A program made the translations under genes and the position numbers. From assembly GCA_030538425.1 (NCBI GenBank), contig JAUNTZ010000021.1:1-41794 (forward strand): 41,794 nt of DNA, read 5' to 3'. Each line of letters starts with the position of its first letter. Position 1 is the stretch's first letter. Below the pieces are notes generated by a model. The model made no database searches, was not told the origin of the DNA, and saw only the letters and a list, made by a program, of their open reading frames with translations. This DNA comes from Paracoccus sp. (in: a-proteobacteria) (GTDB lineage Bacteria; Pseudomonadota; Alphaproteobacteria; Rhodobacterales; Rhodobacteraceae). This document shows positions 3,037 to 16,470 of the stretch, piece by piece.

Positions 3037-3165
3037 CGCACGGCCTGAGGCAAAGGTTCCCCAAGGTTAACGCATTGTAAAGCATAAAATTTTACGCATA
3101 TTCTACTTTGGGTTGTGTTTTAGCTGTGCTAGTCCCGTTTCAGGTTCTTTGGAACGGATGGACTG
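3037..3165. promoter_or_regulatory. AT-rich divergent promoter region between kbp and the CAP gene
   Basis: The spacer is clearly AT-richer than its surroundings and holds the palindrome TAAAATTTTA at 3085-3094. A CtrA-like sequence, TTAACGCATTGTAAA at 3067-3081, fits TTAA-N7-TTAA with one mismatch in the second half. Promoter elements for both genes should lie here. I cannot assign -35/-10 boxes with confidence. Confidence 0.4.
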
Positions 3166-3696
3166 ATGCGACTGATTGCTTTGACCTTTGCCTTTTTATG
3201 TCTGATTCCCCTGGCCGCGACGGCCGATTCCCGTATCAATGTGCGCAATGACCTGACCGTGGTGCAGGCCGCGCGTCCGGGCCAGCCGCATTGTGTGGCG
3301 ACCTCACGCGATGATGCGCGCCAGGCGCTTGAGGCGACCAATGCGCTGCGCAGGCAGCATGGGCTGCGACCTTTGCGGGTGAATGCGGCCCTTGCGGCGG
3401 CGGCTGCGGGACATGCCTGCGATATGGCCGCGCGGGGCCTGATGACGCATGAGGGGCGCGCGGGCGGCGGTCCCGCACAACGCGCCCGCGCGGCGGGTTT
3501 TCAGCCCCGGACGACCGCTGAGAATATCGCCGCCGGCCCCTTCACGCTGGAACGTGTGGTGGCCGAATGGAACCGCTCACCCGGGCATATGGGCAATATC
3601 CTGCTGCCGCAGATACGCGATTTCGGGATCGGCCGCGCGGTGGCGGAAGATGGCAAGACCGTGTTCTGGGCCGCCGTCTATGCCGCCCCGCGATAG
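3166..3696 (+). CDS. Secreted CAP (SCP/PR-1) domain protein
   Basis: The product is a 176-residue exported protein. Residues 1-20 form a classic signal peptide ending in ATA before DSRINV. The rest is a CAP domain with family landmarks: an HACDMAARGLMTHEG stretch holding the cavity histidines, AENIAAG, WNRSPGHMGNIL and the closing FGIGRAV...FWAAVYA strand. The bacterial CAP family (YkwD-like) is widespread and secreted, but its biochemical role is mostly unknown. The start follows a GGATGG ribosome site. The gene stands alone, divergent from kbp and convergent with the ABC exporter gene 17 bases downstream. Confidence 0.88.
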   Translation: MRLIALTFAFLCLIPLAATADSRINVRNDLTVVQAARPGQPHCVATSRDDARQALEATNALRRQHGLRPLRVNAALAAAAAGHACDMAARGLMTHEGRAGGGPAQRARAAGFQPRTTAENIAAGPFTLERVVAEWNRSPGHMGNILLPQIRDFGIGRAVAEDGKTVFWAAVYAAPR

Positions 3697-14788: not shown

Positions 14789-16000
14789 TTATGCCATGGC
14801 GCGGATCAAACCTTCGTCCTGTAATGTGCCCAGCAGGGCGGTCACGTCCCCGGTCAGGCGGGCATAGTCCTGATCGGGAAACGCCTCGGCCAGAACCTCG
14901 ACCAGATCATGCGCATTGCCGGGAATTTCCAGCAAAGCCCAGATGGCTGCGGCGACGGTGTTCAGCCGAAACAGCGTTGCGCCGCCATGCTGCCACAGGA
15001 AAAGCGCCTCACCCTGCCGGCGCAGCGCGACCTTTGGGGCGCGGGTGAAAACGGTGGCCGGATCGGCAGGGGCCGCGTCTTGAAGGGGCTCTTCAAGCGG
15101 GGGCAGGGCCGCGCGGATCTCGACGGCGGTGTTCACGCCCTCATGCCCGACAAAAGCCCGGCGCAAAAGCGCGACTGCGTCCTCAAGGTCGCTATAGACC
15201 AGTCGCAGGCAGATCAGCCGCTCGGCCAAGTCCCGCGCATGAGCGTAACCCTGACCGGCGGTCGCGAACTCACCCATGTTTTGCGTCAGCAGATGGTGGA
15301 TGGTTTCCTCTTGCGAGACCTCATGCAAGGCGGCAGGCGCGTCTGCGCGGCGGTCCAGCACGATCAGCGCGGCCAGCGGCGCCCGGCGGCCATGCGCGGC
15401 GACAGTCGGTGCGCAGACATAGCAATATTCATCGTCATGCGGCCCGCGATAGGTGCCGACATGGGCGCGAAATACGCCCGAAACGGTCGCGGGCAAAGGC
15501 AGGCGCAGGCGCGGTGCAGCGCCAAGCGCCATCCCGTTGCCGTCGGCATCCAAAGGCAGGATATCGTCGCAATAGGTGATCAGGTCGGTCTCAGCCGTGA
15601 TCCGCGCCATCAGCGTGGATTTGCCCGCATGGGCGTGGCCGGTCAGCGCGATCAGCCGCCCGCCAGTCTCAAACGCGCCGCAATGAAGCACAGGCAGGCC
15701 GGGGCGGGCGTCGAAGAAGGCCTCGGAAATATCGGCCAGAACGGCGCAGACCGCGCTGGCTGCGGGCAGGTTTTGGAACGGTTCGTCCAGCCAGGGGGAG
15801 GCGACGGTGAATGTCGCGCCGTCCCGGGTGACGGTTGAGACGGGTTCTGCGCGCGCCTTTGTCGTTTTCTGGTGGGGCCAGCCATGAAGCACCCGACGCA
15901 GACCTTCGCCGACCTGTGCGGCGCGTTCCAGTCGGACGGGACCGGAGAGGCCCTCGAACTGAAGGAACTGGGTGTTGGTGATCTGGGCGGCAAAGCTCAT
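14789..16000 (-). CDS. HPr-kinase-like / PqqD-like fusion protein
   Basis: This 403-residue protein joins two modules. The central part resembles HprK-type kinases, with an unusual P-loop GHAHAGKST at 121-129, Asp145-Asp146 in ITYCDDILPLD, and the APRLRLPLP strand typical of HprK-related proteins. Residues about 322-402 form a PqqD-like peptide-recognition domain (FRLNTVAAAIWALLEI, then a winged-helix-like tail ending in LQDEGLIRAMA). In known peptide systems PqqD-type domains hold a precursor peptide, and HprK-like kinases can phosphorylate serine (HPr, some lasso peptides). The gene begins 34 bases after the Arg-rich peptide gene behind AAGGAG, so the two form an operon and the peptide is the likely substrate. 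Related HprK-like and PqqD genes occur next to each other elsewhere; here they are fused. The activity itself is inferred. Confidence 0.75.
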   Translation of the reverse strand: MSFAAQITNTQFLQFEGLSGPVRLERAAQVGEGLRRVLHGWPHQKTTKARAEPVSTVTRDGATFTVASPWLDEPFQNLPAASAVCAVLADISEAFFDARPGLPVLHCGAFETGGRLIALTGHAHAGKSTLMARITAETDLITYCDDILPLDADGNGMALGAAPRLRLPLPATVSGVFRAHVGTYRGPHDDEYCYVCAPTVAAHGRRAPLAALIVLDRRADAPAALHEVSQEETIHHLLTQNMGEFATAGQGYAHARDLAERLICLRLVYSDLEDAVALLRRAFVGHEGVNTAVEIRAALPPLEEPLQDAAPADPATVFTRAPKVALRRQGEALFLWQHGGATLFRLNTVAAAIWALLEIPGNAHDLVEVLAEAFPDQDYARLTGDVTALLGTLQDEGLIRAMA

Positions 16001-16034
16001 GGCTGGCTCCTTTTTTGGCGTTGGTCAGCGGCTT

Positions 16035-16283
16035 TTACCGGCGACGACGCGGACGCGAGGGGCGCGAGATCTTGCGGCGCGGACGGCGACGCTGTTGCAC
16101 CGGCGCGCGGCGGCGCGGGCGCGACGGGCGCGAGACCTTGCGGCGGCGGCGCGGGGCGGCCTCGGCGGTATCGACCCCGATCAATGCGGGTGCGACATAG
16201 GCCGCGCCTGCGGCCAGGCCGATCTTGGCAAGCAAACCACGGCGGGAGATTTGCGGCGCGTCATTGTTGTCTTTATCGCTCAT
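16035..16283 (-). CDS. Tat-signal, arginine/serine/proline-rich peptide (putative modification substrate)
   Basis: The 82-residue product starts MSDKDNNDAPQISRRGLLAK. It carries a twin-arginine signal with SRRGLLA, a hydrophobic stretch and a likely cut after DTAEA. The remaining 40 residues hold 20 Arg, 2 Lys, 7 Pro and 4 Ser, with no Cys and no acidic residue. The core has two repeats 22 residues apart, RRKVSRPSRPRRR and RRKISRPSRPRRR, also visible as a DNA repeat with 66-base spacing. All four serines lie in the two SRPSRP units. The start is behind GAGGAC; an ATG 10 codons upstream sits inside a hairpin and is less likely. It is followed by the HprK/PqqD fusion gene. It resembles a protamine-like or antimicrobial cationic peptide, and the fusion protein suggests serine phosphorylation before export. 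Function is unknown. Confidence 0.72.
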   Translation of the reverse strand: MSDKDNNDAPQISRRGLLAKIGLAAGAAYVAPALIGVDTAEAAPRRRRKVSRPSRPRRRAPVQQRRRPRRKISRPSRPRRRR

Positions 16284-16436: not shown

Positions 16437-16470
16437 TGAAAAAAGGCGGCGCTTTGGGGGCGCCGCCTTT
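16437..16470 (-). terminator. Rho-independent terminator of the TRAP operon
   Basis: An 11-bp perfect stem (AAAGGCGGCGC / GCGCCGCCTTT) with a 7-base loop is followed on the minus strand by six T. It begins 24 bases past the TRAP permease stop codon. It shows that the Arg-rich peptide gene downstream is a separate transcription unit. Confidence 0.88.

Follow-up and report, generated by a model that had tools for sequence, protein, structure and literature searches.

A Tat signal with a built-in leader motif and a fused HprK-like kinase-RRE protein suggest a phospho-RiPP-like export module in Pseudomonadota

Linear Polyphosphorylated Peptides (LPPs) of Bacillota are, going by the available text of PMC13381572 (Nat Commun 2026), the closest known system to the gene pair described here. 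In the LPP system the kinase LppK phosphorylates Ser of its precursor and places several phosphates on one Ser. The LPP leaders carry a YxxPxVL motif, and exchange of its Tyr or Pro for Ala weakens binding by LppB, whose residue D70 hydrogen-bonds the leader Tyr. According to the same text, lasso RREs mostly recognise [Y/W]xxPx[L/V/I/A/F/Y], paeninodin-type phosphorylated lasso peptides combine a WxxP/YxxP leader with an RRE and a Ser-acting HprK-like kinase, and an NTP transferase is encoded in LPP clusters as well as in those of paeninodin type (PMC13381572). Tat signals, for their part, are bound through their hydrophobic and C regions by the Tat redox-enzyme maturation proteins (REMPs); one of them, DmsD, lowers membrane binding, as stated in the available part of PMC3316669. 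Our literature search, which left out most subscription papers and preprints, found no paper on the module described below, and an earlier description is possible. Judged by title and the start of the abstract, the relevant literature consisted of PMC13381572 and papers on lasso peptides and RREs only. The main text of PMC13381572 contains none of the terms 'Tat', 'twin-arginine', 'Proteobacteria' and 'Pseudomonadota', and the available text of PMC12710340 contains YxxP and neither 'kinase' nor 'HPr'.

The window analyzed here is a stretch of 41,794 nucleotides from a Paracoccus sp. (contig JAUNTZ010000021.1), and the two genes of interest lie on its minus strand. The peptide gene (16035-16283, ATG at 16283) encodes 82 amino acids, comprising a Tat signal (residues 1-42) and a 40-aa Arg/Ser/Pro core, and is followed after 34 bases by the gene for a 403-aa fusion protein (14789-16000). 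Both open reading frames and their spacing agree with the two-gene unit given in an earlier note on this DNA. The neighbors of the pair, named by reading, are an aminotransferase-like gene on the opposite strand and an upstream TRAP-transporter-like gene. Just past the latter, and separating it from the pair, lies a terminator-like inverted repeat (16442-16470, without assigned strand and listed on the plus strand) that is T-rich on both sides by reading. The upstream terminator of the earlier note thus exists as a stem of 13 pairs, but it is statistically weak, since the count of terminator-like sites is barely above that in shuffled sequence (3 versus 2.0 +/- 1.5). No SpI peptidase, NTP transferase or MsbA-like transporter was recognised by reading among the window neighbors, and a lasso or macrolactam cyclase and a B2 peptidase are absent next to the precursor gene, again as judged by reading. 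Interpretation as a plain lasso cluster was rejected, since no cyclase is recognisable.

The 403-aa protein is predicted to be an HprK-like kinase joined to a PqqD-type RRE. For the C-terminal part, the assignment made in the earlier note holds: residues 340-399 (14804-14983, minus strand) match Pfam PqqD PF05402 with an E value of 5.6e-10 and 39.8 bits, over the cut-off of 23.4. For the kinase part the single sequence gives little, as Pfam returned no HprK match for the window fusion alone and NCBIfam HprK_rel_A (TIGR04352) matched it at E 2.5e-8 with 33.4 bits, much lower than the curated cut-off of 200 bits. By sequence, the window fusion is a relative of the HprK_rel_A equivalog and not a member of it. 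Since single-sequence searches were weak or empty for the HprK part, a family profile was built from an alignment of 31 fusions (A2). In a search against the PDB its best matches were the RREs TbiB1 (5v1u, 1.9e-8), LppB (9x8z, 1.3e-5) and TfuB1 (6jx3, 1.7e-5), followed by the HPr kinase 3tqf (5e-5), the RRE PbaB1 (9x90, 1.2e-4) and further HPr kinases (among them 1jb1, 1.5e-3). All four RREs bind lasso or LPP leaders, and the matches to 3tqf and 1jb1 cover profile positions of about 94-154, the P-loop region. The HprK-like domain proposed earlier is therefore borne out by the family profile, while the single sequence remains weak.

The P-loop GHAHAGKST (residues 121-129; 15614-15640, minus strand) and the Asp pair D145-D146 (15563-15568, minus strand) are where the earlier note had placed them. 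Identical in 31/31 fusions are H106, GKS126-128, D145, D146, R164, R166, Y192, R217, Y269 and W354, and the alignment with 3tqf reveals the HprK-type signature, a His before the P-loop, the GKS, and the Asp-Asp after it. In the RRE domain D385, an Asp in 30/31 fusions, aligns with D70 of LppB (tag residues subtracted). L389, a Leu in 17/31 fusions, aligns with F74 of LppB, which divides the pocket there, and hence the leader pocket is not identical to that of LppB.

The export signal of the window peptide can be recognised by reading from its SRRxxL motif, the hydrophobic region and an AxA site, but profile support falls short: TIGR01409 scores 16.2 bits, just below its cut-off of 16.7, and a Pfam search returned no match to the signal. 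The Tat signal claimed earlier is thus clear by eye and not confirmed by these profiles. The twin-arginine motif SRRGLL (residues 13-18; 16230-16247, minus strand) is followed in the hydrophobic region by YVAPAL (residues 29-34; 16182-16199, minus strand), a putative RRE-binding motif of YxxPxL type whose Tyr lies at RR+14, counted from the second Arg. We aligned 52 leaders, 44 of main peptides and 8 of second clients (see below), and RR is present in 52/52. A Tyr at +14, a Pro at +17 and a hydrophobic residue at +19 were found in 51/52, although the invariance of Tyr and Pro is partly by construction, as an RR...Y..P pattern served to select the peptides. What does not depend on that selection is that each readable fusion has a Tat-YxxP peptide beside it and that RR and Tyr are a fixed distance apart. 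Exceptions in spacing are L073 and the P. marcusii peptide of L176 (loci and genomes of relatives are given by L and G numbers), which have three extra residues ahead of the Tyr. As a control we used ordinary Tat signals (PF10518, seven genomes), of which 23 of 24 were readable. Among these a Tyr at +14 occurs in 0/23 and an aromatic-x-x-Pro elsewhere in the region in 2/23, whereas Pro at +17 is found in 7/23 and is thus not special.

The new observation is a YxxPx[hydrophobic] motif at fixed spacing inside a Tat signal. The window leader YVAPAL fits the [Y/W]xxPx[hydrophobic] leader type; the extended LPP leader YxxPxVLxHQxIxFETxxS is not found, and the window reads YVAPALIGVDTAEA instead. 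Compared at the level of sequence, the motif resembles the one bound by lasso and LPP RREs, and the export signal probably doubles as a tag that marks proteins for modification before export.

Cleavage after AEA (site assigned by reading) would leave a mature part of 40 aa with 20 Arg, 2 Lys, 7 Pro and 4 Ser. It contains two SRPSRP copies 22 residues apart (residues 51-56, 16116-16133; residues 73-78, 16050-16067; both minus strand), which we propose as modification sites; these counts are the same as in the earlier note. When the mature peptide was shuffled 200,000 times, two such copies appeared once. In the 44 main cores, a Ser/Thr is followed by another three residues further on with a frequency of 0.62 versus 0.30 in shuffles, while lags 1, 2, 4, 5, 7 and 8 fall below expectation. 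Across 51 cores we counted 154 copies of the tripeptide [ST][RK]P, with 16 expected, and at least two copies are present in 21/51, non-class peptides (YSRPSYSRP) among them. A recurrent Ser motif is thus found across relatives in the form of Ser/Thr tripeptide repeats, SRP being one of them. The other core positions drift in composition between Arg/Pro, Gly, Ala and Glu. That Ser/Thr are held in register amid this drift argues for selection without proving it, and the period of three could also stem from growth of a DNA repeat alone, without selection on Ser. Judged from the sequences, Ser/Thr repeats are the commonest feature shared by the cores. Some cores are poor in these residues, such as those of L081 (one), L078 (four) and the window (four), and a peptide unlinked to the kinase in G456 has a Pro/Gly-rich core with few Ser/Thr. 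As LppK loads several phosphates on one Ser in the available account of that system (PMC13381572), repeats are not required for activity.

Core charge follows clade. It is basic in 13/14 rows of one clade and acidic in 15/16 rows of the other, and mapped on the kinase tree it requires 3 changes versus 11.3 in shuffles (0/200 as low). The Ser-repeat peptides of the acidic clade carry the same leader as those of the basic clade and go with the same kinase. Arg-richness was dropped as the conserved core feature and Ser/Thr spacing took its place; Arg-rich cores are limited to one clade. Several acidic-clade peptides (among L053, L062, L044 and L054) have a two-Cys loop at the C-terminal end, for example CxAxGGxWDxxNxVCV, and several basic-clade peptides (L070, L025) have a short hydrophobic C-terminal tail (MPLWMLQLLGLI, WVRTIFGG). 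Neither kind of end is seen in the window peptide.

The fusion was searched for in four draws of genomes, and in the family, class and phylum draws the kinase counts are lower bounds, since scoring was limited to four candidates at most in each genome. The first draw of 61 genomes contained it in 3/37 genomes of the window's genus (own included) and in G051 of another family. Among 394 genomes of the family, at least 28 (own included) have a full-length fusion in one frame; in addition, G183 has a fusion in two frames with the peptide present, and G427 the kinase part only. In the class draw, matches with E no higher than 1e-20 come from at least 37/385 genomes. Full-length fusions account for five of them (G000, G051, G655, G586, G744); most of the others are kinase genes lacking a fused RRE, and several of these adjoin a separate RRE-like gene. 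With a limit of E 1e-25, the phylum draw yields at least 8/398 genomes, of which four belong to other classes and seven have a full-length fusion. On plasmids (PLSDB) the fusion is found in four from Paracoccus (three of P. marcusii) and two from Shinella, annotated as 'PqqD family protein'. Viral contigs gave no match, and a broader contig search nothing useful, with one short match to the P-loop region in a Lachnoclostridium MAG. The patchy occurrence within genus and family marks the fusion pair as an accessory module.

Pairing of the two genes is conserved. Overall there are at least 39 full-length one-frame fusions, counting G001 at a contig edge and excluding G427 (no RRE, no peptide) and G183 (two frames). 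The neighborhood is readable in 38, and a Tat-type YxxP peptide lies directly upstream on the same strand in 38/38; the filter used for neighborhoods, a tail with Ser+Thr of at least 12%, had missed the Arg-rich peptides of the window and G024, which were added from direct reading. At split-type loci with a separate kinase the picture differs. The non-fusion matches of the class draw come from 32 genomes, and 25 loci (L075-L099) were examined by pattern. A peptide was found in 9/25 (L075, L077-L084), and the other 16 showed none by this pattern within the fetched flanks; hence a peptide is not obligatory for the wider group of HprK_rel_A-like kinases. A profile of the leader (A3), applied to 76 chosen genomes, matched at E 1e-8 or better in 35/37 kinase-bearing and 0/39 kinase-lacking genomes (Fisher 1.2e-19), of which only the 0/39 side is independent because A3 contains peptides of most kinase-bearing genomes tested. 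The two kinase-bearing genomes without a match are G001 and G427, the latter lacking RRE and peptide alike. Weak matches in kinase-lacking genomes are those of G032 (1.6e-5, 421-aa frame) and G063 (2e-4, 352-aa frame). In the phylum draw of 398 Pseudomonadota genomes, 8 have the kinase, 9 the leader and 8 both (p 6e-16), and six of the eight shared genomes are outside A3. The ninth leader match, in G861, is weak (7.5e-7) and lies within an 893-aa frame. In G456, which is of the split type, the peptide is located about 40 kb from the kinase. The gene pair is thus conserved, both in gene order and in co-occurrence across genomes.

How does the pair compare with the known systems? With LPPs, as far as the available text of PMC13381572 describes them, it shares a lasso/LPP-type RRE, an HprK-like kinase, a YxxP leader motif and the lack of a macrocyclase. 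In contrast to LPPs, RRE and kinase are fused, a Tat signal serves as the leader, the cores consist mostly of Ser/Thr tripeptide repeats, the hosts are Pseudomonadota, no SpI peptidase or MsbA-like exporter was recognised by reading beside the pair, and additional clients, either S8 subtilases or PepSY-like proteins, occur in some relatives. The module would seem to work like an LPP system, yet it fails or leaves open parts of the LPP definition. Paeninodin-type clusters share leader motif, RRE and kinase type as given in the same text, but the window locus has no recognised lasso cyclase or leader peptidase. The HPr-rel-A system (NCBIfam TIGR04352/TIGR04353) is similar in that 31/31 fusions of A2 match HprK_rel_A at E 0.01 or better and in that kinase genes with an adjoining separate PqqD gene exist in the same class. 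It differs in that the window protein reaches 33 versus 200 bits, is fused and has a Tat-YxxP peptide. An analogy can be drawn to TorD and DmsD (PMC3316669, available part), as the Tat hydrophobic region would be bound before export. Here, however, modification of the client is presumably covalent. TorD and DmsD are not known to share a fold with the fusion.

In some relatives the leader is found on further proteins. An S8 subtilase of about 440-480 aa with the same leader is encoded in 7/17 basic-clade loci (L154-L157, L027, L175, L176); L172 and L174 have an S8 gene whose leader was not flagged by pattern, and no S8 gene is nearby in eight of the 17, the window included. One more S8 subtilase with the leader, unlinked, occurs in G086 (L158). 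Pfam confirmed S8 in all four proteins tested (L154, L155, L156, L158). The linker after the signal is mostly rich in Ser/Gly/Arg, and in L157 rich in Asp/Arg with few Ser. Most of these subtilases end in a conserved C-terminal tripeptide containing Ser, SGE (FSVSGE, FLTSGE; L154:2662-3996, L155:3099-4514, L156:2520-3836, L157:2688-4130, L158:2154-3536, L174:1707-2972, L176:1203-2468); the one at L027:103-1458 ends in SGN, and that of Shinella (L175) has no such end. In the acidic clade, a second Tat-YxxP Ser-rich protein follows the kinase in 8/17 loci (L054, L056, L058, L060, L062, L167, L173, L039). Such second clients combine the Tat-YxxP signal with a Ser-rich linker and a PepSY-like C-terminal domain (L060:5226-5801, L062:2632-3189, L056:5502-6038, L054:5673-6449, L167:3913-4416); of four tested with Pfam PepSY, L062 is over the cut-off, L054 and L056 are below it, and L060 has no match. 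The same leader on these proteins indicates that the kinase probably serves several exported clients. A second Tat-YxxP peptide with SRP repeats (L070:2524-2979, L159:2273-2722) is nearby in G192 and unlinked in G444, and hence one kinase may serve several similar peptides in some genomes.

Regulatory genes are linked to the module in some relatives, ECF sigma or two-component genes. Sigma-factor genes are near L155 and L158 (Pfam) and on annotated plasmids, anti-sigma genes were noted by reading only, and a response-regulator-like gene adjoins the second client in L054, L056, L060 and L062 (Pfam-tested in L060). On the P. marcusii CP157 plasmid (L174, about 3044-3420), the signal and the Ser repeat of the peptide are not in the same frame and the annotation lists no gene at this place, and in P. 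marcusii strain KGP (L176) the peptide is in one frame (WP_330447804); the P. marcusii fusion has the accession WP_330447805.

Taken from sequence comparison, the likely role of the pair is that of a phospho-RiPP-like export module in which the RRE would hold the Tat signal while Ser is phosphorylated by the kinase on the cytoplasmic side, before the product leaves through Tat. The fused RRE would bind YxxPx[hydrophobic] in the Tat hydrophobic region and so place the core with its Ser/Thr-x-x repeats within reach of the HprK-like active site, where one or more serines would be phosphorylated with ATP. Binding of the leader is suggested by the order of the PDB matches, D385 in 30/31 fusions, the pairing in 38/38 and the Tyr at +14 in 51/52 versus 0/23. 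The kinase reading draws on the invariant H106, GKS and DD (31/31) together with the activity of LppK on precursor Ser (PMC13381572, available text). The bound signal would be hidden from Tat and the RRE would act as a proofreading clamp, and REMPs, DmsD in particular, set a precedent for binding that delays export (PMC3316669, available part). Once modified, the peptide would come free of the RRE, pass through Tat and be cleaved at the AxA site. A point against this scheme is that an RRE bound within the hydrophobic region would have to compete with Tat targeting. The earlier note's idea of binding and modification before Tat export is retained as the likeliest logic, with the YxxPx[hydrophobic] recognition motif added and phosphorylation as the presumed modification. 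Given LppK as described in PMC13381572, single-site and multi-site phosphate chemistry both appear possible.

If the kinase did not modify its client at all, the fusion might be a Tat proofreading chaperone like the REMPs, with the RRE holding the Tat hydrophobic region and the P-loop domain as an ATP-driven release switch. The binding of Tat hydrophobic and C regions by REMPs and the effect of DmsD on membrane binding (PMC3316669, available part) speak for such a chaperone, as does the presence of a protease and PepSY-like proteins among the clients of relatives. We nevertheless consider it unlikely, because Ser/Thr repeats are the commonest trait of the cores and the HprK catalytic residues are invariant. 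To our knowledge none of the clients is a redox-cofactor protein, which also counts against a chaperone. Moreover, the related LppK is a real kinase in the available text of PMC13381572. A Ser-linked modification other than simple multi-site phosphorylation, that is, a phosphate chain on one Ser or a glycosyl or nucleotidyl group attached later by another enzyme, is rather unlikely; it would be in line with the multi-phosphate Ser made by LppK, with the NTP transferase of LPP and paeninodin-type clusters (PMC13381572, available text) and with a gene at L062:5296-6168, close to the peptide, that by reading encodes an RmlA-like sugar nucleotidyltransferase. However, no NTP transferase was recognised in the other neighborhoods on reading of partial translations, and an array of many Ser/Thr better fits multi-site use.

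The earlier note had favored a phospho-switchable peptide of cationic, protamine-like or antimicrobial character. The window core, with 22/40 basic residues, and the basic cores of its clade fit this proposal, but as a general function it does not hold, since core charge is not conserved and the acidic sister clade has the same leader and kinase. The neighborhoods, where read, contain no recurrent exporter or immunity gene beside the fusions, and protease and PepSY-like proteins bear the same leader in some relatives; we regard this function as very improbable. As the product, a polymer or regulator rich in phospho-serine, located in the envelope or secreted, is more likely than an antimicrobial peptide. 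Chance adjacency of the kinase to a low-complexity Tat protein with which it has nothing to do is hardly credible: GC-rich low complexity is all that favors it, and both the co-occurrence and the tracking of peptide charge along the kinase tree oppose it.

Returning to the phospho-RiPP-like export module, its broadest form would see Tat signals with an RRE docking motif as dual-purpose leaders, through which the fused RRE-kinase phosphorylates Ser/Thr-repeat segments of several exported proteins (peptide, subtilase, PepSY-like) before export, a proposal for and against which we see the chances as evenly balanced. If true, it would give Pseudomonadota a general way of phosphorylating envelope proteins in the cytoplasm, with Tat proofreading by a RiPP domain, and would link two normally separate fields, RiPP leader recognition and Tat proofreading. 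It would also predict from sequence alone which exported proteins are serine-phosphorylated before export, and would give a role to 'hypothetical' Ser-repeat Tat peptides and 'PqqD family' proteins of the phylum. The leader motif, with Tyr at RR+14 and Pro at RR+17, makes the idea directly testable.

Several loci outside the module deserve mention. Distant kinase-like matches lie beside proteins with a signal-like start and SGASRNDS repeats (L068:5468-6990, G105) or SGGG repeats (L066:1397-2849, G101), possibly a wider theme of kinase and Ser repeats. The window's genome has another PqqD-like protein (L019:8974-10959, G000:C71) between methyltransferase-like and nucleotidyltransferase-like genes (by reading), perhaps another RRE-dependent cluster. 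Finally, the relative G051, which also has the Tat fusion, harbors a lasso-like cluster (L016:2828-7173, G051:C6) with a cyclase, a PqqD, a 400-aa kinase-like gene and a precursor whose YHRPVL is an instance of the known motif.
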